Source: Actinomycetota bacterium
GTDB lineage: Bacteria; Actinomycetota; Acidimicrobiia; Spongiisociales; UBA5794
Direction of reading: 5' to 3'
DNA: 56,220 bases
Assembly: GCA_013151445.1 (NCBI GenBank)
Contig: JAADIG010000092.1
Span: 1 to 56,220, forward strand
The stretch's first letter is position 1, and each line of letters begins with the position of its first letter. Below the pieces are notes generated by a model. It saw only the letters and a list, made by a program, of their open reading frames with translations, did not search any database and was not told the DNA's origin. A program made the translations under genes and the position numbers. Below, in pieces: positions 5,676 to 21,868 of the stretch.

Positions 5676-7984
5676 TGTCCAGGCACAGGATCGTCGAGGC
5701 AGCGCTCGCAGCCCGAACCACCGAAGAGGCGGCCAAAGTCCAAGACCTTATCGAGGTGGCCATTGGCGCCCGGTACCAACGTCCGATCGGGGACCGCTGG
5801 AACAACCAGGGGTTGCTCACAGCCAGCGGGAGCAACTACAACCACAAGGCACTCGAGGTCGTCACCAACATGCAGGATGCCATTCTTGAGCTACACGCGC
5901 TGCAAGAGTATGGGCGTCACGAGAATGTCCCCTTCAAGACCCCCTACGAGGCTGCCACAGTACTGCTTGCCAGACTCGACAGGAAGGAACGAGCCGCGCT
6001 GGCAACTGTGACTATCGACCAGTCGTCGACGGAAGCTAACAGGAGGCACATCACGCTCCTGATGCGAGACCACGGGTGCGGCATCCGGCCCAATCAGGTG
6101 CCCCGTACGATCTTCCAGATAGGTACAAGCCACAAGGACGGCGTTGACTGGCAGCAGGGCACCTTCGGGCTCGGCGGTGCCACAACCTATCGAAATTCTG
6201 ATGCTGTCGTTCTTGTGACTCGTCGTCATCCCGACCTGCTCCAACCCGGCGATGAAGACCGTATCACCGTTGCCGTAGTGCAATGGGAACGCGTCAGAAC
6301 TACCACCAATGCCTTCTACCTTGTCGCATCGCCGTGGGAACAGCCTGGTGACGAGGCAGCCCCCATTTCGGTCCTGGCCGCGGAGTACCCGGACTTCCAG
6401 CCGGGTACTCATCTCGCTCTCATAGCGTACGCGACCGAGGGCCTCGGCCGGCGTTCAGGAGATGAGCGATCCTTCGACACGGTCTTCAACACACGGCTCT
6501 ACCGGCCGGTTGTCCCGATCAGCTACCGCAACAACATCGTCCGCGCCGAACGGGTTGAGACCCTCGACGGACTCGAACGCCGCTTCGATGACAACCCAGG
6601 TGATCCGGGAACCGAAGGACTCGACACTCTCCCCTTCACGCATGCCGGAGGGACCTATCACCTGCCGATGCGATTCCGGCTCTTCGCCAAGCCGGGGCAG
6701 AAAGGCCAGCGCCGGAACTTCGTCGCCCACGGTCACGCTCTCGTCATTACGTCCAACGGCCAGGTGCACTCGCACTGGCAACCGCAGGAATTCAAGTTCC
6801 GCACGAAACTCAACAAGCTCTACGACCGCATCCTCGTCGTTGTGGAAAGCGATGCGTTGCCAATCGAGGTGCGTACTGAGCTATTCACGGCGGACCGCGC
6901 ACAGCTTGTCCGAAACGCCGCGGCCATCCGGCTGGAACATGAGATCGCCGCCTTCCTTGACGACTGGGCCGCCCTCCAGGATGCGAACAGCGCCCTCATC
7001 AAGGAGGCCATCACGGGTGACAACAACGATCGACCAACTATCGAGGTTGCACGCAAGATCGCGCGCGCTCTCAAGGTCAAAGGGTTCTCCGCAGGCGGCA
7101 CCGGAACCGGCGGCAGTCGACCCAAGCCCCCCGACCCCGTGCCACCCGAGGATCTCTACGACAATCCAACGCATTTCGAGGGCCCAGACGAGGTTGTGGC
7201 ACCCGTTGGCAAGGCCAAAGGCATCTACTTCAAGCTCAATGCCAAGGATGGATTCCTCGGACCCGACGAGAGGGGGAATCTCCACGTCACCTGCGACCAT
7301 CCGGACATTGGTCTCGATGAGATCACCGTCGGTGACCTTCGCTCCGGGCGTGTTCGGGTTAGCATCGCCGTTCCAGAGACTGAGGACCTCGGCCCGTACC
7401 AACTTCACGCAGTCATTCTTCCGTGGCCCAAGTCGTCGGGCGGTTTGGGTCCACAGTTTGAGTGGACAACCAAGCTTGAACTCGTCAGTGAGACGAAGCC
7501 CAAGCCCGGAGGCAAGGGCTCCGGCAAGGACAAGGGCAGCAAGGCGGTTGGCCAGGGGAATCTGGTTGCTCTGATCTGGCGCAGCGACGAGGACAAGGAT
7601 GATTGGAATCCCTCCAGTGTCGGGGACATCGAAATGGTCACAGGGAAGGATCTCGCCGCGCAGAGGGACGAATACGAGGATCTTGCCAAGATTACGGACG
7701 AGATCCCCACGATTGTGCTGAACCGGACCCATTCCCCGCTCAAGAAGTACGTGCAGGCGCGCGCTGTTGAACTCACGGACGACGGTAAGGAGCAGGCCCG
7801 CGAACGTTACGCGGTCGGCGTCGGCGTCGCACTCCTGATACTCAACCAGCAACGTGACAAAGATGTGAAGAACAAGAAGATCCCCGATGAGGAAACATTC
7901 GCCGCTGCCGCGCGAGCCTCCGCGCGAGCGGTTCTTAGCGTTCTACCTGACTATGATCGTCTCGCCAAAGAGCTGGAGGACTAG
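5675..7984 (+). CDS. GHKL (MutL/MORC-like, paraMORC-type) ATPase
   Basis: This 769-aa protein has a clear Bergerat-fold ATP site. The N-box is E61-VVT-N65-MQ-D68-A69; the G1 box is D132-H-G-C-G136; the G2 box GTFGLGG is at 162-168, inside FQIGTSHKDG...QQGTFGLGGA. The region after it (about 190-330) would correspond to the S5-like transducer. A proline/glycine-rich linker (about 475-495) leads to a beta-rich domain (LNAKDGFLGPDERG) and a second GK-rich linker near 610-625. Comparative genomics has placed MORC-like GHKL ATPases in restriction-modification operons, where ATP-driven clamp closure on DNA is proposed. Here it is coupled to the RHH-like gene and lies next to vsr, HNH and a cytosine methyltransferase. 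No SF2 helicase is present. It is not a canonical MutL or Hsp90. Confidence 0.75.
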   Translation: MSRHRIVEAALAARTTEEAAKVQDLIEVAIGARYQRPIGDRWNNQGLLTASGSNYNHKALEVVTNMQDAILELHALQEYGRHENVPFKTPYEAATVLLARLDRKERAALATVTIDQSSTEANRRHITLLMRDHGCGIRPNQVPRTIFQIGTSHKDGVDWQQGTFGLGGATTYRNSDAVVLVTRRHPDLLQPGDEDRITVAVVQWERVRTTTNAFYLVASPWEQPGDEAAPISVLAAEYPDFQPGTHLALIAYATEGLGRRSGDERSFDTVFNTRLYRPVVPISYRNNIVRAERVETLDGLERRFDDNPGDPGTEGLDTLPFTHAGGTYHLPMRFRLFAKPGQKGQRRNFVAHGHALVITSNGQVHSHWQPQEFKFRTKLNKLYDRILVVVESDALPIEVRTELFTADRAQLVRNAAAIRLEHEIAAFLDDWAALQDANSALIKEAITGDNNDRPTIEVARKIARALKVKGFSAGGTGTGGSRPKPPDPVPPEDLYDNPTHFEGPDEVVAPVGKAKGIYFKLNAKDGFLGPDERGNLHVTCDHPDIGLDEITVGDLRSGRVRVSIAVPETEDLGPYQLHAVILPWPKSSGGLGPQFEWTTKLELVSETKPKPGGKGSGKDKGSKAVGQGNLVALIWRSDEDKDDWNPSSVGDIEMVTGKDLAAQRDEYEDLAKITDEIPTIVLNRTHSPLKKYVQARAVELTDDGKEQARERYAVGVGVALLILNQQRDKDVKNKKIPDEETFAAAARASARAVLSVLPDYDRLAKELED

Positions 7985-8137
7985 GTGTGGCAACGAGTCA
8001 GGGTGGAGCCGCGAGCCCGACGGCGCGGTGATGGTTGACGGTGCCATCCGCTGCGTCACGTACTCGGCTGTGTCTCGCGAGACCTTTCCCCCCGTGACTG
8101 GACGTTGCCCCAGACTGCTTCCCCCGCTCGCGTCTGA

Positions 8138-8587
8138 TCACGCTTCCTCTGACCCGTCGATCCGACCGCGTGGGTAGCCGAGGTCGCGCAGGCACTGTTT
8201 CACTCGATCTGCCGCTTCTCGAGGGTCCTTCAGGACCTCGAAATCCCATAGCCTGATCACAGTCCACGCGAATGCGGCCAGCTCGGTGTTTGATCGGCTA
8301 TCTCTGGCCACGTTCTCCGCAATCTTGCGATCCCAGAACTCGCCGCTCTGGCCAGCCTTGTACTTCGAAGGGTGACCGTGCCAGAAGGCACCGTCGACGA
8401 AGACGGCGAGCTTGGCCGGGCCGAATGCGATATCAGGCCGCCCTGGAAGATCGCGACGATGACACCGCCAACCGCGAACCCCGAGCGCCCACAGGGCGCG
8501 ACGTAGAGCGAGTTCGGGCTGCGTATCACTGCTCTTGATCCGGCCCATTATCCGGCTTCGTTCTTCTTTGGTGAACACGTCGGGCAC
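8138..8587 (-). CDS. vsr: Very short patch repair (Vsr) endonuclease
   Basis: The start is GTG 8587, with GGGAG 6 nt upstream; this gives 149 aa, the normal family length, whereas the longer frame adds 27 poorly conserved residues. It opens with the family signature FTKEERSRIMGRIKSSDTQP, followed by LPGRPDIAF and AVFVDGAFWHGHP. These carry the catalytic Asp and the zinc/phosphate-contacting His residues, and the protein ends with VIRLWDFEV. Vsr nicks 5' of T in T:G mismatches that arise when 5-methylcytosine deaminates, so it fits the C5-methyltransferase at 9452-10582. It lies convergent to the ATPase gene and head-to-head with the HNH gene (47 bp between starts), a compact divergent promoter region. 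Confidence 0.9.
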   Translation of the reverse strand: MPDVFTKEERSRIMGRIKSSDTQPELALRRALWALGVRGWRCHRRDLPGRPDIAFGPAKLAVFVDGAFWHGHPSKYKAGQSGEFWDRKIAENVARDSRSNTELAAFAWTVIRLWDFEVLKDPREAADRVKQCLRDLGYPRGRIDGSEEA

Positions 8588-8634
8588 GGTCTGCTCCCGG
8601 GTTTGGCGCGAGTCTTTACGGTACCATCCAGCTA

Positions 8635-9459
8635 ATGACACCCGCCGAGCCCCCAGACGACCTTTCACTCGCCGAACTCGCTACTAAGGCGATTGCGGCA
8701 CTTGGACTCGTTAGTGGAACTGATTCGGTGCTCAGAAACCAACAGAGGGTGGTCGAGGCCGCTATCGCCACCGAGGAGCTGGCGCGTCGGCTGAGGCACG
8801 GCAGGTCGGGACGAGACGTCATCTTGGAAATTCTGAAGGCCGCCTCTCCCGGCGAAATCTCCGCTGATTTCCTGCGCCACACCTCCGGAATCCAGGAGTT
8901 CGCTCGCCGAATTCGCGAACTGCGGGTGGAGTTCGGCTATGACGTGGAGACAACTAGGTCGGGCTACCGGCTTCTTTCGACCAATCCTGACTCGGCGGTG
9001 GCGGAGAAATGGGCCTTGATGAATGAGATCAGGCGGCGCAGCACATCGGCGATGCAGAGGATTGAGGCCCTCTTCCACGCACGGCTTGGTGAGATCATCA
9101 CTACAAGGGATATCGAGTACGTGTCCAAGATCAGTTCCGGCCCGAGACGGGTACGAGAGATGCGGACAGAGAACGGCCTCCGGATCGAATCCCATAAGGA
9201 CAATCCGGACCTGCGTCCCGGGGAATACGTGCTGTTGGACCCCGAACCGATACCCGCTTCGGAGCGCACCGTCGACGCGAGTCAGCGTGAGCGGATACTC
9301 GAACGCGATGGACACGCGTGTGTGCTTTGCGGCCGAGGGCCCGACCGCAAGAACCGTATCTGGCTGGAGGTGGACCATATCACCCCACTCGCTGACGGGG
9401 GCGGGAACGACGACGCCAACCTACGGACCCTCTGCAACGAGTGTCACCGGGCTAGATGA
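8635..9459 (+). CDS. HNH endonuclease with duplicated winged-helix-like N-terminus
   Basis: The 274-aa protein ends in a zinc-stabilised HNH module: C229-x2-C232, LEVDHITPL (D247-H248), GGGNDDANL with the central Asn, and C267-x2-C270-H271. Two similar segments precede it: about 76-114 (FARRIRELRVEF to SGYRLL) and about 149-202 (RRVREMRTENG to PGEYVLL). Each has a recognition-helix-like R-x2-R-E-x-R core followed by a wing, so they read as tandem winged helices. It is probably the restriction nuclease of the island, with Dcm as the protecting methylase. Its end overlaps the end of the methyltransferase gene by 8 bp (convergent), which leaves no room for an intergenic terminator. Confidence 0.85.
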   Translation: MTPAEPPDDLSLAELATKAIAALGLVSGTDSVLRNQQRVVEAAIATEELARRLRHGRSGRDVILEILKAASPGEISADFLRHTSGIQEFARRIRELRVEFGYDVETTRSGYRLLSTNPDSAVAEKWALMNEIRRRSTSAMQRIEALFHARLGEIITTRDIEYVSKISSGPRRVREMRTENGLRIESHKDNPDLRPGEYVLLDPEPIPASERTVDASQRERILERDGHACVLCGRGPDRKNRIWLEVDHITPLADGGGNDDANLRTLCNECHRAR

Positions 9460-10582
9460 CCATCGGGATAGGGGCCTCGAGTTGGTCCAGGACACTGCCG
9501 GCAATCGCCTCTGCGAGACCCACAGGGACGGCGTTGCCGATCTGGCGTGCGATCTCGATTTTCTTCCCGCACCACGAGAAGTCGTCCGGGAACCCTTGAA
9601 GGCGAGCAGCCTCCCAGTGCGTGATCGGTCTGTTGACACGGGACTCCGGGTTGTCCACCGTCCATTCGGGATGCAGATACTGCCCCTTCTCCGGTTTGAA
9701 GAACTCGGTACGAATCGTGAGCGATGGGGCGTCCCAGCGCATCCGTCCCATCACATCGGTAGTTCCGGACGGCTTGTTACGCCAGCAGTCCGGGAGTAGC
9801 TCGTAGGGGAGGTCGAAACGACCCCCTCCCGGGGGAACGTAGTCGTACCGTTCGAGCGAAAGGGGTCTCGGATTTCTGCCGAGATGTAGGTCCGCAGCCT
9901 TGAAGATCCCGGGAAGCATCTGTCCGAAGAACTCTACCCTGCTGTCGGGAAGGATCGATGAGCCGGTTTCGTAGGGGATGTCGACGAACGCCTCCCGTAC
10001 GGTACGCCAGGCCAGTTCACCGTTCCCGTGCTTAGCGTGGCGAGGGACAGGCAGCTCCGGTCGACCGATTCGCGACCCGACAACAACAGTCCTCCGTCGG
10101 CGCTGCGAAACACCGAAGTCCGCCGCGTTGAGAATGGCCACCTCGATGGAGTAGTCCCGCAGCACACCCGAGCGGATCTCCTCCTCCAGAAGCCCAAACT
10201 CGTGGGACGACCGGAACCGGTCCACATTCTCAATCACGAACATCTTGGGGCGTGCGTGGGTAACCACGCGCACGTACTCCCGCCACAACCGGTTGCGCGG
10301 ATCCGCGGGATCACGCGTCCCGAGGTTCGAGAACCCCTGACACGGCGGACCGCCGATAACGACGTCAACTTCCGGCACAGAAGCGTCCGACAAATCGCCT
10401 ATGTCTCCGCAGAAGATGTGGTCCTCCCCGAAGTTTGCCGCGTAGGTGGCGGCTGCCGACAGGTCCCATTCAACAGCCAACGTCGGACGAAACCCCAGGT
10501 TCACGAACCCTCGAGTCATACCGCCACATCCCGCGAAAAGATCGATAACGGTGGGACCGTCAGGTCTATATTCGTAACTCAT
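9452..10582 (-). CDS. DNA (cytosine-5-)-methyltransferase
   Basis: The 376-aa protein has the standard C5-MTase motifs in order: motif I DLFAGCGG (14-21), motif IV GGPPCQGFS with nucleophile Cys81, motif VI ENV (118-120), motif VIII QRRRR (160-164) and motif X QIGNAVP near residue 350. The target-recognition region lies between VIII and X and does not reveal the recognised site. I place the start at the ATG of MSYEYRPDGP because family members begin about ten residues before motif I; a 15-residue longer frame starts at 10627, and neither has a strong ribosome-binding site. With Vsr next door it makes 5-methylcytosine that needs T:G repair, and it probably protects against the HNH nuclease. 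Confidence 0.9.
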   Translation of the reverse strand: MSYEYRPDGPTVIDLFAGCGGMTRGFVNLGFRPTLAVEWDLSAAATYAANFGEDHIFCGDIGDLSDASVPEVDVVIGGPPCQGFSNLGTRDPADPRNRLWREYVRVVTHARPKMFVIENVDRFRSSHEFGLLEEEIRSGVLRDYSIEVAILNAADFGVSQRRRRTVVVGSRIGRPELPVPRHAKHGNGELAWRTVREAFVDIPYETGSSILPDSRVEFFGQMLPGIFKAADLHLGRNPRPLSLERYDYVPPGGGRFDLPYELLPDCWRNKPSGTTDVMGRMRWDAPSLTIRTEFFKPEKGQYLHPEWTVDNPESRVNRPITHWEAARLQGFPDDFSWCGKKIEIARQIGNAVPVGLAEAIAGSVLDQLEAPIPMVI

Positions 10583-10955
10583 GTGGAAATCGCACGCATG
10601 TAGTTCATAGGCCGAACGATACAACATGTGTCGGACAGATTCTTGTTACATGGGAGAGTCTTCTCAGTCGAGTCGGCGACAGGTGGGTGCTCCGACACTC
10701 CTCGCTTTCTTGTCCCCCCGGCACAAGGGTTGGTCGTTCGGTCTGTTAGTTGCCACGTGAGACAAACCGCGCATTGCGCAAAGACTGCACTTCGGCATCA
10801 CATGGGCGAGGCGCGAACCGGACCCACCGACTGCCCACATGCTCGCGCCGGCACGGGGCCGCAACACGAGCGACCAAATGGATCCGAGTGGGTAACGTTC
10901 ATGAAGGGATTCCCTACGTCCGGCTCTAGTAACCTCGAAAGTCGTGGGAGAGCGA
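10583..10955. other. Divergent intergenic region, no supported gene
   Basis: This stretch separates the methyltransferase start from the next plus-strand gene. It should hold the promoters for both. A short TTGCGCAA palindrome near 10775 is the only repeat I noticed. Frames at 10628-10963 (plus) and 10664-10867 (minus) have no protein-like pattern. Confidence 0.4.
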
Positions 10956-11693
10956 ATGTCTGAAGGTATTTGGAGCCGAGCGTTTCGGGACGCTCGCGGT
11001 CACTGGTTCACGAGTGCAGTGGGCCCGCTCGGCCTGGCGTTCCTTGAGGCGACGGTCGCGGAGATCGCTCTTCCGGCTGAACCGACGTTTGCTGACCGAG
11101 CGCTGGCATTCCTCACCGTTGCCGGTGTCTTCGCTGTTGCCGTCTACATCTTCCACCTGTGGCGCGCCCCGTTCAGCCAGCGCGATGAAGCCCTGCAGTT
11201 GAACCGGGAGCTAGCGGATGCTCGTACCCGACCTCCGTTCAGATTGGAGTTCAGAGATACACCTCCCGAGGATGGTGGTGGACCCCGCCTAATTGTCCGA
11301 CACAACGTGATCAACCACGGACCGAAGGGGAAGTTCCGGGCCGAGTTCGAAAGAGTCGACGGATCCAGGAGTACAACCGCTCGCATTCCCCTTGAGTGGA
11401 CGAATCGGAGAGGCGACCGTGAGATCGCGATCGAGGGCAGCGGTACCGAGGCCCAACTCACTCTCGGCGAAATGGCGGTCAGCGATGATCACGCACGTTT
11501 CTTCTACTTTGTGGCGCGGACCCCCGACGGTCCGGGGACGGATCAGATACGACCATCGGCGGGTGTGGGCTGGATACGCGTAACTGTGAGAGTTGTCAAC
11601 GTCGATACAGAACAAGATGCCAGCGTCCAATTGATCATCGGAGCCGACGCGAATGGGCCGTTCGCGAAAGCGGCACGCTCCTCGGCTGACTGA
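10956..11693 (+). CDS. Membrane-anchored hypothetical protein (two TM + beta-rich domain)
   Basis: The start is ATG 10956 with GGGAG 5 nt upstream rather than GTG 10944; this gives 245 aa. Hydrophobic stretches at about 22-38 (VGPLGLAFLEATVAEI) and 46-66 (ALAFLTVAGVFAVAVYIFHL) form two membrane segments. A QRDEALQLNRELADA coil and a beta-rich domain with RHNVINHGPKGKFRAEFE and WIRVTVRVVNV follow. No catalytic motif is seen. The same layout in the 2385-3203 protein on the other side of the island suggests a shared family. Function unknown; anchoring or a membrane-linked role in the defence locus is conceivable but untested. Confidence 0.55.
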   Translation: MSEGIWSRAFRDARGHWFTSAVGPLGLAFLEATVAEIALPAEPTFADRALAFLTVAGVFAVAVYIFHLWRAPFSQRDEALQLNRELADARTRPPFRLEFRDTPPEDGGGPRLIVRHNVINHGPKGKFRAEFERVDGSRSTTARIPLEWTNRRGDREIAIEGSGTEAQLTLGEMAVSDDHARFFYFVARTPDGPGTDQIRPSAGVGWIRVTVRVVNVDTEQDASVQLIIGADANGPFAKAARSSAD

Positions 11694-11815
11694 CTCCGCG
11701 CACCGGCGCCTCGCCAGATCCACACGGCGCGTGATCGTCTGCTTGCAATACCCGAAGGATACTCAACCCGAGTCCGCGACACAGCTGCTCGGATTCGCTG
11801 GACTCCGGGTGCGCT

Positions 11816-13177
11816 CTAGTCGACGATGGGTAGGTGTTCGAGGGCGGCGGCTACCTTTTCTGCGGGGTAGTCGAAGTCAACGAGGTCACCGGAGAGGTAC
11901 TTGTCATAGGACGCCAAATCGAAGTGACCGTGACCACACACCGCAGTGAGAATCACCTTCTCCTCGCCCGTCTCCTTGCACGCCAACGCCTCACGGATTG
12001 TTGCTGCAATCGCATGCGTGGGCTCCGGCGCCGGGATGATGCCTTCGTTGCGAGCGAACTTGATCGCGGCCTCGAAACACTCCGTCTGCCCAATCGCTTC
12101 AGCCTCGATCAACCCCAGCTCGTAGATGTGCGACAACAGCGGCGACATGCCGTGATACCGCAACCCACCGGCGTGGATCGGGTCGGGAATAAAGTCGTGA
12201 CCCAGGGTGTGCATCTTCACCAGCGGTGTCATGCCAGCCGTGTCACCCGAGTCGTAGGCGTACACACCCTTGGTGAACGAAGGGCATGCCGTCGGCTCAA
12301 CCGCGCGAATAGTCGGATTGATCTTCCCCGCAAGTTTCTCGCGCAGGAACGGGAACGTGAGACCCGCAAAGTTCGAGCCGCCCCCCGTGCAACCAATCAG
12401 AATATCCGGAGAATCGCCCGCCTTCTCCATCTGCAGCAGGGCTTCCTCACCGATAATCGTCTGATGCAGCAACACATGGTTCAGCACACTGCCAAGCGCA
12501 TAGCGTGTCTCGGGATCCTGAGCCGCCATCTCGACCGCCTCGGAGATCGCAATCCCCAAGGACCCCGGACTATCGGGGTCCTGTGCGAGAATCGCACGCC
12601 CCGCCTCGGTGAGCGACGACGGGCTGGAATGCACGGTGGCGCCCCAGGTCTCCATCATTGATTTGCGATACGGCTTTTGCTCGAATGAGGCGGCAACCTG
12701 CCAGACCTCGCAGTTGAGCCCGAATAGGCCGCAGGCGAAGGCGAGCGCACTCCCCCACTGGCCGGCACCCGTCTCGGTCGTGAGGTTCTTCACACCCTCC
12801 TGAGCGTTGTAGTACGCCTGGGGAACCGCGGTATTGGGCTTGTGTGACCCGGCCGGACTCACACCCTCGTACTTGTAGTAGATCTTCGCCGGTGTATCGA
12901 GGGCCTTCTCCAGACGGCGGGCACGGTACAGCGGTGATGGGCGCCACAGGCGGTAGATGTCGAGAACCTCACCGGGGATATCGATGTAACTGTCGGTGCT
13001 GACCTCCTGCATGATCAACGCCATTGGGAACAGCGGTGCGAGGTCGTCGGGTCCGATCGGCTCATGGGTCCCGGGATGCAACGGAGGCGGAGGCGGTGCG
13101 GGCAGGTCCGGAATGATGTTGTACCACTGGGTCGGCATTTCGGACTCGTCCAGCAGATATTTGACCGTATCACCCAT
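11816..13177 (-). CDS. trpB2: Tryptophan synthase beta-like protein, TrpB2 type
   Basis: This 453-aa PLP enzyme of the TrpB2 class is longer than classical TrpB. It has the N-terminal extension with [12 protein letters not shown] (79-90), the PLP lysine K113 in GSHKPNTA, the phosphate-binding [10 protein letters not shown] and a C-terminal [15 protein letters not shown]. TrpB2 condenses indole (or a related acceptor) with L-serine or O-phosphoserine, often without a TrpA partner; no trpA lies near. The gene stands alone on the minus strand. A strong inverted repeat (13215-13244) lies 38 bp upstream of its start and could be its operator. Codon use matches the core genome. Confidence 0.92.
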
Positions 13178-13214
13178 GGCAATTCCTCAGTTCGTGTCGA
13201 GCGATCATACCGGA

Positions 13215-13244
13215 ATCGATTCAAGGATGGGTCCTCGAATCGAT
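13215..13244. repeat. Inverted repeat upstream of trpB2
   Basis: ATCGATTC-A-AGGA, loop TGGG, TCCT-C-GAATCGAT: 12 paired bases with one internal mismatch and a 4-nt loop. No T-run follows on either strand. It is placed 38 bp before the trpB2 start on the minus strand. It is either an operator or leader hairpin for trpB2 or the end signal of the small minus-strand gene at 13277-13444. Confidence 0.6.
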
Positions 13245-13256
13245 CACCCCGGTATT

Positions 13257-13272
13257 ACCCGGTCGACCGGGT
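13257..13272. repeat. Perfect 16-bp palindrome
   Basis: ACCCGGTCGACCGGGT is self-complementary over all 16 bases. It lies 12 bp from the previous inverted repeat and just past the stop of the small minus-strand frame, so it may be a dimeric-protein binding site or part of a bipartite terminator. Confidence 0.5.
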
Positions 13273-13276
13273 GCCG

Positions 13277-13444
13277 CTACGCAGCGTGAGCGATGCTTCC
13301 CGCATCGCACATCGGGCAGATGCCCGAGCACCGTGCAACGACCTCGAATGAGAATGCCGCGCAAAGCAGGGCTTCGGCTCGGTCGAGCGTGTTGCCCGTG
13401 CCTGGGTTAGTTGCTGGGATTGGGGTGACGTTGTTCGTATCCAT
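13277..13444 (-). CDS. Possible small Cys-containing protein (55 aa)
   Basis: The frame from ATG 13444 reads MDTNNVTPIPATNPGTGNTL followed by DRAEALLCAAFSFEVV and ends with RCSGICPMCDAGSIAHAA. Third codon positions are about two-thirds G or C, as in neighbouring genes, and the clustered Cys (CSGICPMC) suggest metal binding or a modified peptide. No good ribosome-binding site is seen, and a longer frame from 13579 exists. It sits between the divergent trpB2 and ridA genes. It may be a genuine small gene, a peptide precursor or chance; treat as tentative. Confidence 0.35.
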   Translation of the reverse strand: MDTNNVTPIPATNPGTGNTLDRAEALLCAAFSFEVVARCSGICPMCDAGSIAHAA

Positions 13445-13558
13445 GGCCGTAACATATCTCGTGGGTGTGACAAGAAACCCCGACCCGACCGCAGCGAGAT
13501 CCAGCCCCCGTCGCACGTCACTATTGTCATCAACAGAGCCGAGCGCGAGGACGCCCCC

Positions 13559-13915
13559 ATGAGCCACGGAATCGATCATATTGATGTCAACGGTTGGCTA
13601 CCAACCGCAACCGTGCACAACGGCATCGCCTATCTGTCTGGCGTCGTTCCGAACGGGGGAACATCCGTTGCCGAGCAAACCAGGTCCGTACTTGACCAGA
13701 TCGACGACCGTCTGTCTCGGTGCGGAACGTCCAAAACGCACCTCCTGGAAGTCACGATATGGCTTGCTGACATCGGGACCTTCGCCGAGATGAATCCCGT
13801 GTACATCGAGTGGCTCACCGGTATTGCACCACCCGCCCGCGCCTGCGTCGAGGCAGCACTCGCCAAACCCGAATGGGCCGTCGAAATCCGCGTCAGCGCG
13901 GTTGTCCCAAAGTAG
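13559..13915 (+). CDS. RidA/YjgF family enamine-imine deaminase
   Basis: This 118-aa protein has typical RidA length. The strand GIAYLSGVVP and the end PPARACVEAALA carry the conserved Arg that binds the carboxylate of imine/enamine substrates, and EIRVSAVVPK closes the fold. RidA proteins form trimers and hydrolyse reactive 2-iminoacids to ketoacids. The next gene, five bases downstream, is a D-amino-acid dehydrogenase-type enzyme whose product is exactly such an iminoacid, so the pair likely works in sequence. The start is ATG 13559. Confidence 0.85.
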   Translation: MSHGIDHIDVNGWLPTATVHNGIAYLSGVVPNGGTSVAEQTRSVLDQIDDRLSRCGTSKTHLLEVTIWLADIGTFAEMNPVYIEWLTGIAPPARACVEAALAKPEWAVEIRVSAVVPK

Positions 13916-13920
13916 GCATT

Positions 13921-15174
13921 ATGCGCGTTGCAGTACTTGGTGGCGGTGTGGTCGGGATCACGACCGCGCACACCCTGATCGGGGCCGGTCTCGATGTCAC
14001 AGTGTTCGAACAGGGTCCGACGGTTGCCGGTCAGGCATCTGCCGCCAATGCCAGCCTGGTGACGCCGGGCCACGCCGTTGTATGGAACGCACCAGACGCA
14101 CCATTTCGATATGCGACGACACTGTTCAAGCCGAGGTCCCCCGTCGGCTTCAACCCCGCAGTGTTCATCCGATCAGTTCCCTGGGTGGCCAGCTTCTTGC
14201 GCAATAGCACTCCCGGTCGGTCGAAGGCGGCGACGACTGCTATCACCCGTCTCGCAATCTCCAGCGCACACCAACTCAGGGAGTTGCTTGACGACACCAG
14301 CTACGACATCAACGTCGGCACCCGGGGGGTCCTCTACTGGCACAACTCAGAGAAGGACCTCGCCAACGAGCGCCACCATTGCGAGTTCCTGGTCTCCCAA
14401 GGGATCGACGCCGCAATCCTCGACCGTGACGCACTGCTCGCCCTGGAACCCGCTTTCGGACGATCCGAGACCCCACCGGTCGGTGCTCTCCACGTTCGCG
14501 ACGATTTCACCGGCGACTGTCGCCTCCTCACCGAACACCTCGCCGCATCCATCAACACCTCCCCGAGCGGTCGTATCATCCTCAATACCACCGTGACCGG
14601 AGTCTCCGTCACCGACGCCGGCCCTGGCGTGTCTACCGACGAGGGTGTCCAGTCCTTTGACCATGTCGTTGTGTGCCTCGGCGCAGCAACCGGAACGTTC
14701 CTCAAGAAACACGACGTGCGGCTCCCCATCGCTCCCGCCAAGGGTTACTCGATCACCGCGACAGTCACCGACCGTGCCCTCCTCCCGCGGATCGGAGGTG
14801 TCGATTTTGCAGAGTTCTGTGCCATCACACCGCTCGGCGAACGGCTCCGTGTCACGGCCATCGCCAGGTTCGAGGGACCCGACACGACGTTCGGGCCAGC
14901 CGATTTCGCGACGCATCGGCGGGTCGCCGACAGCGTCTTCCCCGGACTCGTCGATTGGGAGAGCCCGCTCAATGAGTGGGCGGGGCTACGGCCTATCTCC
15001 TCGGATGGGAAGCCGACGATCGATGCGGTGCCGAACACGCCCGGACTGTGGGTCAACGCTGGGCACGGCTATCTCGGCTGGACGCTCTCGATGGCATCGG
15101 CCGACATCATCACAACGAAGATACTCGGCCAACCAATTCCCCCCGGAGCGGAAGCCTTTTCCTATCGCTGGTAA
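13921..15174 (+). CDS. dadA: FAD-dependent D-amino-acid dehydrogenase (DadA-like)
   Basis: The 417-aa protein begins MRVAVLGGGVVGITTAHTL, a dinucleotide-binding GxGxxG site (7-12), followed by the acidic end of beta-2 (VTVFEQ). The DAO-family C-terminus includes LRPISSDGKPTID and NAGHGYLGWTLSM. DadA enzymes oxidise D-amino (or sometimes L-imino) acids at the membrane, passing electrons to quinone. The frame continues upstream to 13810, but ATG 13921 follows the RidA stop by 5 nt and gives the correct N-terminus. The last about 105 bp recur in degenerate form at 21764-21868, flanking the operon that follows. Confidence 0.85.
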   Translation: MRVAVLGGGVVGITTAHTLIGAGLDVTVFEQGPTVAGQASAANASLVTPGHAVVWNAPDAPFRYATTLFKPRSPVGFNPAVFIRSVPWVASFLRNSTPGRSKAATTAITRLAISSAHQLRELLDDTSYDINVGTRGVLYWHNSEKDLANERHHCEFLVSQGIDAAILDRDALLALEPAFGRSETPPVGALHVRDDFTGDCRLLTEHLAASINTSPSGRIILNTTVTGVSVTDAGPGVSTDEGVQSFDHVVVCLGAATGTFLKKHDVRLPIAPAKGYSITATVTDRALLPRIGGVDFAEFCAITPLGERLRVTAIARFEGPDTTFGPADFATHRRVADSVFPGLVDWESPLNEWAGLRPISSDGKPTIDAVPNTPGLWVNAGHGYLGWTLSMASADIITTKILGQPIPPGAEAFSYRW

Positions 15175-15297
15175 CCGAGACACATCGTCATCGAAACGGT
15201 GAACCAGCGAGGAGCGCTAAAGACGCACCGCCCGCGCCCAGGCACGGGCCACACAGATGTACCCCGACGGATGCCGACTATCCATGATTGGATCTAG

Positions 15298-16335
15298 TTA
15301 CGCGTGGCCTGCCACGTAGACGTCGAGTTCGCTGATCCAGCCTGCCCTGTCTTCCCAAGAAGCAAAAGTCGCCTCCAACGAATGACGAGCAAGCTGCGCC
15401 AAGTCGGATCGAGAAAGATCGAGCGCCTCCGCGACGGCCACATAGTTGTCGGCAATGTACCCCCCGAAGTATGCGGGATCGTCCGAGTTGACCGTCACCT
15501 TCACGCCACGATCCATGAGCCGCTTCAGGTTATGGTCTTGGAGGCGATCGAGAACGCCGAGGGCGAGGTTCGATAGCGGGCACATCGTCAACGGCACCTC
15601 CGATTCGACTAGTCGGCCTACAAGAACCTCGTCTTCCTCGCTTCTAACTCCGTGGTCGATTCGTTCAACCCCGAGGTGATCGAGGGCAGCCGTCACATAC
15701 GCCGGGGGGCCCTCCTCGCCAGCGTGCGCGACCGCCCGCAGACCGGCGACTCGAGCGAGCTCAAACGCGTCGGCGAATAGTTGGGGTGGGTTGGGAACCT
15801 CCGAACTGTCGAGGCCCACACCAAGCAATCGGTGGTGATAGGCGGAGGCTTCTCGGAACGTCTCGCATGCGGCTTCACCAGACAGATGCCTCAGGTAACA
15901 CAGGATGAGGCCTGCCGAAATCCCGACCTCACCTTCGAGATCGTCAATGGCTCTCAGGAAGCCGGGCATGAAGATGTCGTAGCCCACCCCCCTCCCGGTG
16001 TGCGTTTGGGGGTCGAAGAAGATCTCCGCCCTTCGTACACCGTCAGCAGCGGCGCGGCGCAAATATGCAGCCATCAAGTCATAGAAGTCCTGTTCGGTCA
16101 CAAGGACCGATGCTGCCTCGTAGTAGATGTCGAGAAACGATTGAAGATCCACAAACGAATATGCGGCCGCAACATCATCGACCGTTGAGTACGGGATCTC
16201 GACACTATTGCGTTTCGCGAGTTCGAACATGAGATCCGGTTCCAACGTGCCTTCGATATGTACGTGCAGTTCTGCCTTCGGAAGACCCTTGACATACGAC
16301 TCAAGTGAAACAGTCACTTTCTCTTCACTCTCCAA
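15298..16335 (-). CDS. Adenine deaminase (adenosine deaminase superfamily)
   Basis: The 345-aa protein has zinc ligands H24-x-H26 in PKAELHVHIEGT, then HAGEEGPP and ERIDHGVRS blocks and the terminal SDDPAYFGGYI. The last motif is the mark of the adenine-deaminase branch of the Add family; true adenosine deaminases read SDN or TDN here (compare 50514-51551). The reaction would be adenine to hypoxanthine plus ammonia. It is the last gene of a minus-strand run with an ABC importer (45 bp after the permease), so the imported compound or a breakdown product may be purine-like. The exact substrate is uncertain. Confidence 0.75.
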   Translation of the reverse strand: MESEEKVTVSLESYVKGLPKAELHVHIEGTLEPDLMFELAKRNSVEIPYSTVDDVAAAYSFVDLQSFLDIYYEAASVLVTEQDFYDLMAAYLRRAAADGVRRAEIFFDPQTHTGRGVGYDIFMPGFLRAIDDLEGEVGISAGLILCYLRHLSGEAACETFREASAYHHRLLGVGLDSSEVPNPPQLFADAFELARVAGLRAVAHAGEEGPPAYVTAALDHLGVERIDHGVRSEEDEVLVGRLVESEVPLTMCPLSNLALGVLDRLQDHNLKRLMDRGVKVTVNSDDPAYFGGYIADNYVAVAEALDLSRSDLAQLARHSLEATFASWEDRAGWISELDVYVAGHA

Positions 16336-16380
16336 ATTGATCAGAAGTCATTCATCGGAAGTCCCGAATTCGTGCATTCC

Positions 16381-17964
16381 CTAGTTCGCATATCGTCGGG
16401 CCACGGAGCGTTCCACGAGGCCGATACCCGCATAGAACCCCGCAGCGATAAACACCGATATCGCCGCGACAGCCCAGATCATGCCGTAGTCCAAAAGTCC
16501 GCGTGATTCATTCAGCAGCTGCCCAAGACCCTTTCCGGTGGCGAGCCACTCAGCAATCATCACTCCCAAGAGTGCTCGTGGTGCGGCGAGCCGAGCCGCC
16601 GAGATCAGGTAGGGAACGGCCGTCGGTACCTGGACGAGCCGCAACACCTGCAGGTCGGATCCGTTGTATGTCTTGACAACATCAATTGTGCCGCTGTGAG
16701 CCTGTGACAGTCCCTGAGCGGTCGCAACGAACGCGGGAAAGAACGTCACAGAGATCGTGATCACCATCGTTGTTGTCACTCCGCGCCCGAATATGAGCAC
16801 GATCAGCGGAGTCAAGGCCACGAGCGGCATAGTCTGGGAAATGAGGGCGAAGGGCATTACGCCCTGAGCTATCAAGGGCCTCAGGCTGAGAAATGTTGCA
16901 AGGACGAAGGCGAACAAGAGTCCAATCGCGAGCCCTACAAACGTGAGGGGAACAGTTTCGCCGAGTGCCTCAAGAAGCCTTCGACGCGATGCCGCAGCCT
17001 GCGGACTCGAGACGAGGTAGCGTACGAAATCGATAGGTCCGCGCGCGATGATCGGGGACAGGCCAACGCCGGAAACAAACAATTGCCAGGCGCCGAGCGT
17101 GGCCGCAAACGAAGCTATCGCAAACAGGGCTCGCGTCGACCTACTCTGGTTGTCGGTACCACCAAGTGTGGCTGGCGTGACAGTCATCACGCTCGCCGAC
17201 GTCGTCTTCCCCGCAAGTCTGCGTTCAAGGTATCCGAGAAGAACGTAGGCGCCCGCCGAGATCGCGGTAGCGACGAACCCGATACCCCACAGCCGAGCCG
17301 GATCGCCCTGCCCAAGAGAACCGAGCAAGAACGTGCCAAGCCCCGTGCGGGTACCGCTCCCGTACTCGGCGAGGATGGCCCCGAGCACGGCAGCGGGGGC
17401 ACCGACGCGCAGACCGGCAACAATCCCGGGGACGGAGTTGCGGAGCCGGATCCTCCGCAGGACATCCGACCGGCTACCGCCAGAGACCATCACGAAGTCC
17501 TCGAGGCGCGGATCGATATCTCGTAGACCAATCAACGTTGATGCCATCGTTGTGAAGTAGACAGCGACCGCCGCCAGGATGATCCTCGGTGTTGACCCCG
17601 TAAAGGCGAGCACCAGGATCGGAACAACCGCGATCAGCGGCACACTAAAGAGCGCAATACCTATGCCGCGCATGAGCCGTTCCAGCCGAGGAGACACCAT
17701 GAACGCTACTGCCGCGCCGATAGCGATCACGTTACCGATGACATACCCGATGAATGCCGACGAGGTCGTCGCGAGAGTGTGAGCCGGATACAGTGATCGC
17801 TCGGTCCACAACGTGGAGAGAATATCCGACAACGCGGGGAACGCTCCTCCCCCAATGAGCTCTAGTCTCCCAACGATCTCCCACAGAATCGCTACAACTA
17901 CGTACACACCGATAGATCGTGCAGCGTGTGATCGAAGGAACCGCGATGCGGGCGGCCACGTCAT
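16381..17964 (-). CDS. ABC importer permease, duplicated (two BPD_transp_1 halves)
   Basis: This 527-aa membrane protein holds two homologous importer permease modules. The first half has an EAA-like loop around [18 protein letters not shown] with [13 protein letters not shown]. The second has [20 protein letters not shown] with [13 protein letters not shown]. Each half has about six hydrophobic helices; such fused dimers occur in SsuC/TauC/ThiX-type systems. I start at ATG 17964, which overlaps the TGA of the ATPase gene (ATGA) and removes 14 poor residues. It works with the ATPase and the NMT1/THI5-like binding protein upstream. Confidence 0.88.
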
Positions 17965-18764
17965 TCCTGTCCGCCGCCGTGGAGGCTCTGTGCAAGCGAA
18001 TCCCACATCGTGTGGAACGCTTCCGTCTTAGTCATCGCGACATTGCGAGGTCTCCCGAAAGGAACATCGACCAATTGGGTAATCCTCCCCGGGTTCACAG
18101 CCATGACTGCGACACGATCGGCCAACAGCATCGCCTCATCAATGGAGTGTGTGACGAGGATTGTTGTAGGCCGGTACTCGTTCCAGATCCTCTGTAGCTC
18201 CATGTTCATGGTTCTTCGCAGGATCTCGTCGAGAGCGCCGAACGGCTCATCGAGCAGCAACACCTTCGGCTGGGTGATCAACGCCCGCGCGATGGCAACG
18301 CGTTGGCGCATACCTCCCGAGAGCTGTGCCGGATACGCCTCTTCAAAGCCATCCAGGCCAACTAAACGAAGCACCTCGGCCACGACGGTATCATCAACAG
18401 GTCGTTTCAGCACCTGAAACGGAAGAGTGATATTCGTCACAACCGTTCTCCACGGCAGAAGAGCCGGGTCCTGGAAAACCACCCCGAGCTCCCCTGAGCG
18501 CCGCACCTCATCGGGGGATCGACCCGCAATTGTCACCGATCCCTCGTCGGGTTGATCCAGACCGGCGATTAGCCGCAGCAGGGTCGACTTTCCGCATCCG
18601 GACGGGCCAATGAGGGCAGTGAAGGAACCCAGCGGGGCCTCGAGGGAAACACCCTCAAGGGCCCGAACTTTGCTACCTCCTTTGAGCAGGAACGTGCGGG
18701 AGATTCCGTCGATGGATAGACCAGCAGGTTCTGCAGAAACGGGTTCACTTGTTGACGGCTCCAA
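17961..18764 (-). CDS. ABC importer ATP-binding protein (NitT/SsuB/ThiZ type)
   Basis: The 267-aa protein has Walker [10 protein letters not shown] (53-61), signature LSGGMRQR, Walker [13 protein letters not shown] and a switch His in VTHSIDEA. The FGALDE form is typical of ATPases for aliphatic sulfonate, nitrate, taurine and thiamine-precursor importers. It starts 8 bp after the binding-protein gene and overlaps the permease gene by 4 bp, so the three subunits are made in series. Confidence 0.92.
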
Positions 18765-18772
18765 CGACCCGC

Positions 18773-19792
18773 CTAGATCTCTTCAAGCAGCGTGGTGTCG
18801 AACATACTCCTGTCCGCCATCACTCCTACCTCCGCCAGAGCGCTGATATTGGCGGCGATGGCGTCCTCACTCATTGCAAAGATCCCATCGGGATGTTCTA
18901 TCAGAGACTGTTGCGCATCGTTGAAGAAGAGTTCGTTTTCGATACTGCGCCCCGTTCCAGCGAACCAGGTCTCCTCGAACAACGTCGGATACTTCGTCAC
19001 ATCCTTGAAGTTCTCGTCCCATCCCTTACGGCTCGCCCGCAACCAACCGACAAGCATGTCGCGCTGGTTGTTCAACGTCTCCTCTGTCACCACGATCGTG
19101 TCATTGAACACGGTAAACCCAAAGTCATAAAGGAGGAAGGACGATGCTTGCGCTCCGAGCTCCCTGATCGTGTACGGCACGTTCACAACAAAGTCGATAG
19201 TCGCATCGACCTCGCCGGCGATCAGCGGTGTCGGGTCGTACTGGTACGGCACGATGTTGATGTCGTTGATGTCGATATCGCTCAACCGGAACATCGCCCG
19301 GACAGCGAGCGTATTCACCGGTGGAACGGCAAGTGTCTTCCCTACGAGATCGGCTGGCGAGTTGATCCCCGACGCGGCCAGGCTGACGACGCCGATGGGG
19401 TTCTTCTGAAACTGCGCACCGATGATCTTGAACTTGGCGCCCTGTTCCGTGATTGCCTTGACGGTAGTTTCCGGTGTTGTCAGCGTCACCAGTGCAGTTC
19501 CACTCAGGAGTGTTGACTCCGGAATCACATCCGGGCCACCGGACGCATAGGCGAGGTCGATCCCTTCGCTGGTGTAGTACCCGTTGTCTATCGCAACGAA
19601 GTACCCGGCAAACTCGGCATCATTCACCCAGGATGCCTGGAATGGCAGAGGGGTGAGCTTGGGGGAACCCGGCGCGGTCGAAACCTCCGATTCCTTACCA
19701 CCGCAGGCCGCAAGAATCGTTGATCCGCCCAGAAGCACCGCACCTGCCGCCGTACCTCGTAGGAACTGTCTCCGGTTGATTTGCTGAGTCAT
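18773..19792 (-). CDS. Tat-exported lipoprotein, NMT1/THI5-like substrate-binding protein
   Basis: The 339-aa protein begins with NRRQFLRG, a twin-arginine signal, running into GGSTILAAC with a lipobox Cys at about 30, so it should fold in the cytoplasm and be anchored outside. The mature part has NMT1/THI5 features: FQASWVNDAEFAGYFVAID, GYYTSEGIDLAYASGG and VNTLAVRAMF. Relatives bind HMP-type pyrimidines, riboflavin-like or other heterocycles, as well as sulfonates. A Tat signal suggests a folded, perhaps cofactor- or ligand-bound protein. The context (5-FCL-like proteins, adenine deaminase) favours an N-heterocycle; this is inference. Confidence 0.88.
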   Translation of the reverse strand: MTQQINRRQFLRGTAAGAVLLGGSTILAACGGKESEVSTAPGSPKLTPLPFQASWVNDAEFAGYFVAIDNGYYTSEGIDLAYASGGPDVIPESTLLSGTALVTLTTPETTVKAITEQGAKFKIIGAQFQKNPIGVVSLAASGINSPADLVGKTLAVPPVNTLAVRAMFRLSDIDINDINIVPYQYDPTPLIAGEVDATIDFVVNVPYTIRELGAQASSFLLYDFGFTVFNDTIVVTEETLNNQRDMLVGWLRASRKGWDENFKDVTKYPTLFEETWFAGTGRSIENELFFNDAQQSLIEHPDGIFAMSEDAIAANISALAEVGVMADRSMFDTTLLEEI

Positions 19793-19820
19793 GGTTGCTC
19801 ATCCTTTGGCTGCATCATGG

Positions 19821-20645
19821 CTATTCCTTCTCTTCCTTGCGGAAACTATCCTGCCGTTCGGCGTCGATGGTCTTGTCGGCTCGCGGTGCTTTGTCCACGG
19901 TCTGGACAAGGCGTCGGAGCTCTGCGGTTACTTCAAGCCGCTCGAATTCAGTGCCGGGAATGAGATCCCAGAGGATCCGCCCGGGTTCTCTCCCGTCCCG
20001 GTGGACAGGAATTGTTCGAGTGGGGGTCACGATGTAGTCCATGACGACGTCGTGAGGCTCGCCATCGAGATGCTCATCGACGACCTGGCAGTCGTGGACC
20101 ATATCGATCAACACTGCGTCGGAGTCGACCAGGCCGAGTTCGCTGAGCGCGGCGTACTCGAAGTCGAAATACCCATGGCCCTTGCCGAAGCGCACCCCAC
20201 TCATGCTCACCGCTGTTCCACCGGTGACAAGCACTGCGAACGGGTCGCCTGCTTGGAGCTGGCCCAGCGATACCGGCACGGCATACCTGTCCATTCCATC
20301 CAGCGTTGCGGCGTAAGACTCCTCTCCAGGCGGCACCGTCGTCGAGTCGAGCTCGACGAAGCCCCGTTGGATTCCGTATGTCGTCATCACGAACGGCACG
20401 TTCTCTGCGATGAGCCGCTTGCGGAGTTCCTCGGTTGAGTTATCCGGCGTGATGAAGACACGGCGATTTCCTAGAGTTCGCCAGACGTCCAGGTCGAGTG
20501 TGCGATCGGTGCAGATATCGCTACCTTCGAAGTCCGCTATGAACGAGGACAGGTCCCAATGGAACCGGGAGTCGGGGCGTCCGACTTTCCTCAGGTCAGC
20601 CCAGATTCGCTCGCGATACTGAGTCGTGCGATCAACTGTTGCCAT
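19821..20645 (-). CDS. 5-formyltetrahydrofolate cyclo-ligase-like protein
   Basis: The 274-aa protein is longer than classic 5-FCL (about 190). It keeps the family's glycine-rich nucleotide/folate motif as RFGKGHGYFDFEYA (compare RLGRGGGYYDR) and a late VTPTRTIPV strand. PDSRFHWDLSSFIADF, PDNSTEELR and VHDCQVVDE are shared with the regulator encoded just upstream, showing common ancestry. 5-FCL paralogues have been tied by comparative genomics to thiamine metabolism and NMT1/THI5 transporters, so an activity on the transported compound is likelier than housekeeping folate recycling. Its start overlaps the regulator end by 14 bp. The binding-protein gene follows after 28 bp. Confidence 0.75.
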   Translation of the reverse strand: MATVDRTTQYRERIWADLRKVGRPDSRFHWDLSSFIADFEGSDICTDRTLDLDVWRTLGNRRVFITPDNSTEELRKRLIAENVPFVMTTYGIQRGFVELDSTTVPPGEESYAATLDGMDRYAVPVSLGQLQAGDPFAVLVTGGTAVSMSGVRFGKGHGYFDFEYAALSELGLVDSDAVLIDMVHDCQVVDEHLDGEPHDVVMDYIVTPTRTIPVHRDGREPGRILWDLIPGTEFERLEVTAELRRLVQTVDKAPRADKTIDAERQDSFRKEEKE

Positions 20646-21600
20646 TGGTGCCCCTCATCATTTCCCCGACCTTGGCGCCTACCCCGGCGATCGGTAGTTG
20701 TCCGATCGATCTTGTCGGGGTAATAACGACGAAGGGTGTACTTTCTGGCCGCTGCAACGCCACGGGTCCCTCAACGACCTGGCAATCGTGAACAACTATG
20801 ACCCGCGGGGTGCTCGCGTCGATGACGCCAGCTTCCTCCATCTCATGGATCTCGATGGACAAGAACCGATTCCCCGGTCCGATGTGCTGGCCGTCACTGC
20901 TCGCTGCTGTTGCTCCGGTGACCAGTAAGTCGATCCTCCCGAGACTTTCCACGGAGGGTGAATCGACGGTCGTTCCACACCGCTCCATCCCATCGAGCGT
21001 GGCTGCGAGCAGGATGTTTTCCTCCGGAATCACCGTCGGGTCCAGCACCACATATCCGCGGAGCAACCCGAAGGTCGGCACTACGAGCCTCTTGCCCTGG
21101 ACGAGAGCTTGCGCCCGCAGGTGCTCAAGACTGTTATCGGGGGCCGCAAACACAGTTTGTGCTGCCTCCCACTCCGGTCTCGCCATGATGGTTGCATCAC
21201 AGGTTTCGCGGTCCAGGAAGTCAGGAACGAATCGGTCAAAATCGAGATGAAATCTGGAATCAGGAAGCGCCACATCGACGAGGCGTTCCCGAACTATCAA
21301 CCGAACCTGAACGTCGTGGTTGACGAACGTCCCACGCCCCTGCTCGACGCGGAGAAGGCCTGTTCTGGCGAGCTCGTTGACTGCATGGCGAAGGGTTCCT
21401 CGGCTCACCCCCCAAAGATCGATCAGCTTCGGCTCGGACGGCAGTGGATCCGAATGATCCAGTGGAAGCGCGAGGACCATCCGCTCAAGTTCACGGCTCA
21501 CCTGTACATACAGAGGCGGTTCGCCGCTGACATGCTCCACCTGAAACTGCGGCTGATTTGGCGATATTTTCGGGTTTCGAAGACTGTTCGTAGGACGCAT
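20632..21600 (-). CDS. GntR-family regulator fused to degenerate 5-FCL-like sensor domain
   Basis: This is a 322-aa protein. Residues about 27-97 are a GntR winged helix: [46 protein letters not shown]. Instead of an FCD or UTRA domain, residues about 110-315 are 5-FCL-like and align with the adjacent gene ([52 protein letters not shown]). The catalytic glycine motif is ruined ([10 protein letters not shown] in place of GKGHGYFDFE), so the domain probably binds the ligand without turning it over. A promoter with an inverted repeat lies right at its start, suggesting autoregulation of the whole operon. The transcript may be almost leaderless. Confidence 0.82.
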
Positions 21601-21608
21601 AGTGATAG

Positions 21609-21639
21609 GTATAATCGTCTATACGTCTGGATGTGTCAA
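21609..21639 (-). promoter_or_regulatory. Promoter and operator of the GntR-5-FCL operon
   Basis: On the minus strand TTGACA (21639-21634) and GATTAT (21616-21611) are 17 bp apart. An inverted repeat GTATA-N6-TATAC (21609-21624) covers the -10 element and part of the spacer, the classic place for a GntR-type repressor. The predicted start of transcription is near 21604, only a few bases before the ATG at 21600, so the mRNA is leaderless or nearly so and leaves no room for a riboswitch. Confidence 0.65.
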
Positions 21640-21763
21640 CTGGAACGTTCCCAATCACCGGAAACGCGGCAACAACTGGCCATTGCCGTGGAGTTTGTCG
21701 CCACGCGACCTGGAACGCTCGACACCTCGCGTCGCAGCATGCGGAGTCCGCCACTGCTGTGGT

Positions 21764-21868
21764 ATCTCGGCGGGACGCCGTCGATGGCACCGGCCGACGT
21801 CATCACACCGAGGACACTCGGCCAACCATCTCTCCCAGAGCGGAAGCCTTTTCCTATCGCCGGTAACC
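21764..21868 (+). pseudogene. Degenerate copy of dadA 3' end
   Basis: The stretch ATCTCGGCGGGACGC to CCTATCGCCGGTAACC matches the end of dadA (about 15070-15176) at roughly 85 percent by eye. Shared blocks include TCGATGGCA, CGGCCGAC, ACTCGGCCAACCA and GCGGAAGCCTTTTCC. It is in the same orientation, has lost one base before GAGCGGAAGCC and so is out of frame. It forms a direct repeat with dadA around the 6.3-kb GntR/ABC/deaminase operon. Confidence 0.8.

Follow-up and report, generated by a model that had tools for sequence, protein, structure and literature searches.

What does a transcriptional regulator sense when its second domain resembles the enzyme encoded beside it? The question is raised by an operon of six genes on the - strand at positions 15298-21600 of a 56,220-nt stretch of an Actinomycetota genome (the window). 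In order, the genes encode a GntR-family regulator with a second domain like 5-formyltetrahydrofolate cyclo-ligase (5-FCL) (REG, 20632..21600), a stand-alone 5-FCL-like enzyme (FCL, 19821..20645), a substrate-binding protein (SBP), an ATP-binding cassette (ABC) transporter ATPase, an ABC permease, and a deaminase. We suggest that these genes form an import and salvage unit that regulates itself and most likely handles an N-formyl-aminopyrimidine such as ring-opened adenine, and we give this proposal an even chance of being right. Domain architecture, predicted fold, paralogy, degeneration, operator conservation, and the type and association of the deaminase were computed; repression, ligand, substrate, and reaction are what we infer from them.

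The REG N-terminus matches GntR (PF00392) at residues 30-93 with 54.1 bits (cut-off 27). The second domain matches 5-FTHF_cyc-lig (PF01812) at residues 149-277 with 25.8 bits, below the cut-off of 27, and with 27.2 bits when in-frame neighbors are included. Sequence-only searches of PDB were weak, with GntR-type chains only and no convincing 5-FCL for REG, and no convincing 5-FCL for FCL (1ydm at E 0.69); the fold assignment is drawn from predicted models. AlphaFold models were predicted from alignments of relatives in the window and the fetched loci (REG, pLDDT 86 and pTM 0.80; FCL, pLDDT 89 and pTM 0.86). The best PDB matches of the REG model are 5-FCLs, namely 1ydm (Z 13.6 over 172 residues, 3.1 Å), 2jcb (Z 13.2), and human MTHFS (Z 13.1), and the best match of the FCL model is 2jcb (Z 14.1 over 175 residues, 3.8 Å). 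Foldseek searches with both models likewise matched 5-FCL structures best. The N-terminal part of the REG model (residues about 25-98) matches GntR DNA-binding chains, with the winged helix placed at about 28-95, and the remainder (about 98-300) is predicted to have the 5-FCL fold. A preliminary description of this DNA had proposed a GntR regulator with a 5-FCL-like second domain, and both the PF00392 match and the predicted fold bear this out; it had also allowed that the second domain might have another fold, and the model matches 5-FCLs best. It knew of no described class with this architecture, and the open-access literature that was searched gave no description of a GntR + 5-FCL fusion.

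The second domain of REG and FCL share 35% identity (E 2.9e-33), which indicates that they are paralogues, as had been proposed. The duplication did not arise locally in this operon; the fusion is old and common to Actinomycetota. In a class sample, 9/296 genomes match REG at E 1e-15, and three of those nine carry the GntR fusion (G000, which holds the window and is 98% complete, G281, and G020). In a phylum sample, 22/396 genomes match at 1e-12, and among the matches listed outside G000 all start at query residue at least 88, which lies past most of the GntR domain. Scanning named genome contigs with REG found no relative, and scanning them with an FCL-clade alignment found 44 loci, of which 19 carry a GntR-fused copy, two are cut inside a fused copy, and 23 have none that could be seen. 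Carriers by record name include Georgenia, Amnibacterium, Microbacterium, and Glaciihabitans, plus one Chloroflexota contig (L090), whose REG matches GntR at 70.8 bits and PF01812 at 44.3 bits. A large share of the relatives come from metagenome bins.

A tree was built from 73 rows (21 REG, 41 FCL, and 11 COG0212-type rows, the last labeled by motif); it excludes L055 and L074, which duplicate L035 and L037, and the truncated or broken pieces from L045, L057, L061, L073, L081, L091, and L092. A single clade (99/99) holds all 20 Actinomycetota REG domains. The REG of L090 lies apart from it, next to an archaeal FCL (96/90), so on this tree there were at least two fusions, of which the actinobacterial one is old. 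The tree does not single out one FCL lineage as closest to the REG clade. Three further observations concern relatives of these proteins. At L090:2415-4212, the independent fusion adjoins a second FCL and a fused ECF (energy-coupling factor) transporter. Amnibacterium flavum has a second, very divergent FCL transcribed divergently from REG (L067:13016-13792), with a long branch and unsure placement. A plasmid search with FCL gave five records, three of which are large plasmids from Halalkaliarchaeum, Rhizobium leguminosarum, and Roseinatronobacter with relatives 42-44% identical to FCL. One candidate locus, L094 (29% across 115 residues), probably falls outside the clade and was kept out of motif and tree work.

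The second domain of REG has degenerated where FCL has not. The motif GKGHGYFD of FCL reads GPGNRFLS in REG, a loss already recorded in the preliminary description, and the conserved basic and acidic residues of this G-rich loop are not retained. By window FCL numbering, R152, K155, and D161 are invariant in 41/41 FCL and 11/11 COG0212-type rows (52/52). Of the 20 Actinomycetota REG rows, 19 lack K155, 19 have H in place of R152, and 14 lack D161, which the other six keep. Nine other residues that are common to FCL (P24, D25, S26, D38, N69, R94, G95, L115, and D116) are kept in 20/20 of these REG rows, and at these positions the COG0212-type rows mostly show a different residue or a gap. We read this pattern as catalysis lost and ligand site kept, and it makes it likelier that the REG domain binds a ligand, or the same one as the enzyme. 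The split is not clean. In REG there is also partial loss at W15, E169, D199, D203, and P208, and none of the clade-specific H29, W30, and F32 is retained. The second domain could also serve only to dimerize or scaffold and sense nothing, with another signal controlling REG. Degenerate catalytic-loop residues fit such a role, as does a window REG branch longer than the window FCL branch (1.25 vs 0.35). The nine kept residues argue against it, as do L091, which branches first in the REG clade and keeps GKGHGYLD, and the L090 REG, which keeps GKGHGYFD, and we regard it as improbable.

Regulation by REG is suggested by a palindrome shared upstream of REG operons (examples CGTCTAGACG and CGTATAGACG). 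Tested regions numbered 21, comprising 16 Actinomycetota REG operons, L090, and four loci in which no REG was seen. The pattern CRTMTAKAYG, with at most one mismatch and within 300 bp, occurs in 15/16 Actinomycetota regions (14 loci, L067 counted twice; start codons of several operons set by hand), with 0.84 expected by shuffles for the 15; this chance figure is optimistic because the pattern had been derived from the very regions in which its occurrences were counted. The four loci with no REG seen (L051, L071, L072, and L037) gave 0/4. Close copies checked later were positive in L052, L053, L055, L056, and L060. Paired sites 8 bp apart are present in 5/15 regions (the window, L036, L062, L066, and L068). 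In the window, the predicted operator (21616..21633, - strand) consists of two GTMTAKAC-type palindromes that overlap at a spacing of 8 bp, CGTATAGACG as an exact match and CATCCAGACG with one mismatch. The preliminary description had placed it at 21609-21624 with 5-bp arms, which is not the best choice given the conserved palindrome.

A single promoter-like site was identified (21611..21639, - strand; one found, 0.1 expected), and the two operator palindromes fill its 17-nt spacer, between TTGACA at 21639-21634 and GATTAT at 21616-21611. Within the operon, no promoter-like site was found (2.3 expected by chance). Among eight genomes searched with a 16-base form of the operator at up to one mismatch, G000 and G020 matched only at REG, G281 had one match elsewhere, and the other five had no match, we think since their sites deviate. 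By sequence, a palindromic operator of the GntR type (NyGTNxACNy; PMC4494728) is present near REG's own predicted promoter. Because the operator is conserved upstream of REG operons and absent from the four loci in which no REG was seen, REG is probably an autogenous repressor.

Regulators of the HutC subfamily carry a UTRA domain, which defines the subfamily, and REG, unlike them, had no match to UTRA (PF07702) at E values up to 1. The REG operator does resemble theirs: PMC4494728 gives the HutC consensus as NyGTMTAKACNy and reports half-sites beside the palindromes, and the GTMTAKAC core and its half-sites agree with that description (PMC4494728). MocR/GabR regulators resemble REG in joining a GntR winged helix to an enzyme-fold domain, but this is aminotransferase-like, and for MocR that source reports no common GntR-consensus palindrome (PMC4494728). 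NrtR regulators such as MsNrtR also join a DNA-binding domain to an enzyme domain, and MsNrtR has lost catalysis yet is still released from DNA by ADP-ribose (PMC6800001). In NrtR, however, the Nudix domain comes first and the helix-turn-helix last, whereas in REG the GntR domain precedes the 5-FCL fold.

In 5-FCL chemistry, an ATP-activated formamide is attacked by a neighboring amine. FCL matches PF01812 at 59.4 bits and reaches 32.1 bits against the 5-FCL equivalog TIGR02727, far below the cut-off of 84.9. It has its motif intact and belongs to a clade marked by PDSRFHW, TPDN, ATLDG, and GKGHG(Y/F)FD. The COG0212 paralogue of 5-FCL, At1g76730 (which we take to be MTHFSD-like), shares its Pfam family and overall motif layout, but FCL and REG together are separated from the 11 COG0212-type rows at 100/100. 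Fold and Pfam family would fit uptake of a folate or pterin, with FCL as a variant 5-FCL, REG sensing reduced folate or pterin, and the deaminase acting on pterin. This is very improbable in our judgment given the low equivalog score and a further PF01812 protein in the host genome (G000:C137, 78.5 bits), which is probably the ordinary 5-FCL. The deaminase also speaks against it, being closest to 3ou8, which we take to be Pa0148 (352.6 bits), and to 3rys (340.8 bits), with the next chain at 115.

An importer is encoded directly after FCL, and the Pfam and NCBIfam matches agree with the earlier view of a six-gene uptake operon with a Tat lipoprotein NMT1/THI5-type importer. SBP (18773..19792) matches NMT1 (PF09084) at 126.9 bits and carries a Tat signal (TIGR01409 at 19.4 bits, cut-off 16.7; PF10518 at 20.6, below its cut-off of 22.7) and a lipobox recognized by eye. 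The ATPase gene (17961..18764) has a TTG start, and the permease gene (16381..17964) contains two PF00528 BPD_transp_1 stretches. From REG onward, the gene junctions are a 14-bp overlap, a 28-bp gap, an 8-bp gap, a 4-bp overlap, and a 45-bp gap. Across the clade, FCL adjoins a transporter in 41/44 loci: NMT1-type ABC in 20, ECF in 10, sodium-solute symporter in six, and NCS1 permease in five, with types mostly assigned by homology to a scanned representative. L072, L091, and L094 have no transporter counted. That one enzyme is accompanied by four kinds of transporter suggests an imported solute as its substrate.

The same four types, NMT1-type ABC, NCS1, ECF, and sodium-solute symporter, all occur among thiamin-precursor transporters. 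For NCS1/CytX the source is PMC5874261, and a plant COG0212 paralogue is listed as not being 5-FCL and as involved in thiamine salvage (table in PMC3223725; see also PMC4120688). The nearest solved relative of SBP is 3ix1, an N-formyl-4-amino-5-aminomethyl-2-methylpyrimidine-binding protein (56.4 bits). The importer resembles the ThiXYZ type to which 3ix1 belongs in combining an NMT1/THI5 binding protein, an ABC ATPase, and a permease, and differs in its Tat lipoprotein and its two permease domains in one gene. The operon might then import hydroxymethylpyrimidine (HMP) or formylaminopyrimidine (FAMP), with FCL and REG acting on thiamin-derived pyrimidines. Several results make such thiamin-pyrimidine salvage unlikely. 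The host genome has no ThiE, TenA, or ThiC family match and could therefore hardly use the pyrimidine; two ThiD-family matches were found, both weak, and a ThiN-type bypass was not searched. No thiamin pyrophosphate riboswitch was found at gathering score in 44/44 loci, the window, and L036, several loci being cut by contig ends. Among the 25 most frequent families per tally of 140 neighbor proteins there is no thiamin enzyme family, a tally in which a single-locus gene could be hidden. Two NCS1 neighbors that were tested fell far below the CytX cut-off or had no match. The FCL clade stands apart from the COG0212-type rows, and adenine deaminases recur at its loci instead.

The sixth gene (15298..16335, TTG start, A_deaminase family) encodes, judging by its sequence, an adenine-type deaminase. 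It has the HxHxEGT motif and is closer to 3ou8, its closest solved relative, than to adenosine deaminases, in agreement with the adenine-deaminase-like enzyme first proposed. The depositors name the 3ou8 and 3rys chains adenosine deaminase, and Pa0148 reportedly deaminates adenine. Unlike Pa0148, the window deaminase sits in a regulator-controlled import operon. A second copy of the window type is present in the host genome (C45). In addition to the window, an adenine deaminase is close to FCL in 9/44 loci (eight of AdeC type, some near-identical, and one of A_deaminase type in L070), so two families recur, with TIGR01178 above cut-off in L035. By our own grouping, 6/16 REG lineages have an adenine deaminase, and near relatives leave about four independent cases; the chance per locus is 0.29% on the class background and 1.33% on a looser guess. 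AdeC is present in 3/4 class genomes with REG or FCL vs 21/292 others (Fisher p 0.0018). The gene is last in the window operon, first behind the operator in L066, divergent across it in L070, upstream in L035 and L060, and convergent in L058. In L066 the operator stands before AdeC and in L070 between divergent deaminase and binding-protein genes, which places the deaminase in the predicted regulon there.

The deaminase association would also fit import of adenine or a relative without ring closure, FCL and REG then serving another step, for example on a formylated or phosphorylated derivative. In L037 and L074, a purine-biosynthesis cluster includes FCL and an NCS1 permease (in L037 at 5511-14050), a nucleoside-phosphorylase-like gene is near the ECF-FCL locus L076 (by eye; one PNP_UDP_1 member), and in L083 and L093 the gene for IMP dehydrogenase (IMPDH) and that for FCL are separated by a few kb. 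We nevertheless think this explanation somewhat unlikely, since adenine needs no ATP-dependent cyclo-ligase ahead of deamination; the IMPDH neighbors may be an ordinary housekeeping gene. IMPDH beside REG in L058 was not counted as a partner; it follows an ATP synthase-like gene (by eye) and may be ordinary guaB. In Arthrobacter, FCL lies among a GntR-UTRA regulator, an ADP-ribosylglycohydrolase, and PfkB-type kinases (L072:3545-13701).

Salvage of a ring-opened base would bring these parts together. Bound between -35 and -10 to the doubled GTMTAKAC operator, presumably in dimeric form, REG would block the only promoter-like site, a repression suggested by operator position and conservation. 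The ABC transporter would import the compound handled by FCL, and binding of this compound to the second domain of REG, in which catalytic-loop residues are lost but much of the signature in common with FCL persists, would most likely free the DNA. FCL may activate the imported compound with ATP, and the deaminase may act on the FCL product or on adenine made from it. Formamidopyrimidine-adenine (FAPy-adenine) is an N-formylated aminopyrimidine that would lead to adenine and whose ring could be closed by 5-FCL chemistry. On ring-opened adenine, this chemistry would close the imidazole ring to adenine, and the deaminase would yield hypoxanthine and ammonia. By extension, the PDSRFHW/GKGHGYFD clade may consist of ATP-dependent ring-closing ligases turning imported ring-opened purines (e.g., FAPy-adenine) into purines, with the GntR-fused dead copy as a damaged-base sensor. 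The ring-closing chemistry, an analogy with 5-FCL, is the reading we favor but is tentative both for the operon and for the clade, and we would sooner expect it to fail; the even chance given above is for the broader model of the operon.

A number of observations weigh against salvage of ring-opened adenine under REG control. In G020, REG and importer genes are present (C173, L036) with no FCL adjoining and AdeC on another contig; no FCL was found beside REG or elsewhere in that genome at E 1e-15, so FCL would be dispensable there. An adenine deaminase is lacking nearby in 10/16 REG lineages, some cut by contig ends, and in L035, L060, and L058 the CRTMTAKAYG pattern finds no operator for AdeC itself. 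The L091 REG retains the lysine and shows its GntR part incompletely (24.0 bits against a cut-off of 27). This locus, the single Actinomycetota miss, has no operator nearby, with an unsure start. No operator was found at the Chloroflexota REG locus L090, and L064, a near-copy of L063, was negative, with a site only at two mismatches. Rarity of the 16-base operator form is weak evidence because a reversed-pattern control also gave four matches (single ones in G000 and G657, two in G658). The similarity of SBP to 3ix1 is modest. As a whole, the preliminary description stands on the fusion, paralogy, lost motif, predicted fold, deaminase, and uptake operon, and was revised on operator position and local duplication.

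The operon is bracketed by a repeat. The 3' end of a D-amino acid dehydrogenase gene (15070-15176) recurs at 21763-21868 in the same orientation, with 93/106 aligned bases identical. A same-genus genome has the same dehydrogenase with arginine-biosynthesis-like genes adjoining (by eye) and no REG match. Together these suggest gain or loss of the operon at a variable spot. Next to the operon, 11816-15174 encodes a TrpB-like enzyme, a Rid-family protein, and the D-amino acid dehydrogenase; G121 retains the genes for the TrpB-like enzyme and the dehydrogenase. Farther away, open reading frames at 8635-10627 resemble an HNH nuclease and a DNA cytosine methylase (by eye), and a large ATPase-like frame lies at 5675-7984; together these are perhaps a restriction or defense locus.

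REG would be a traceable example of an enzyme turning into a sensor, because L091 and the independent fusion L090 still carry the motif. The GntR family would gain a sensor fold that is not in the subfamily list of PMC4494728 (FadR, HutC, MocR, YtrA, AraR, and PlmA). The predicted operator makes REG directly testable, and a ligand, if found, would hint at what the enzymes of this widespread clade act on. If the tentative reading of that clade is true, salvage of ring-opened purines would extend over Actinomycetota, Chloroflexota, Bacillota, and archaea, behind four transporter types.

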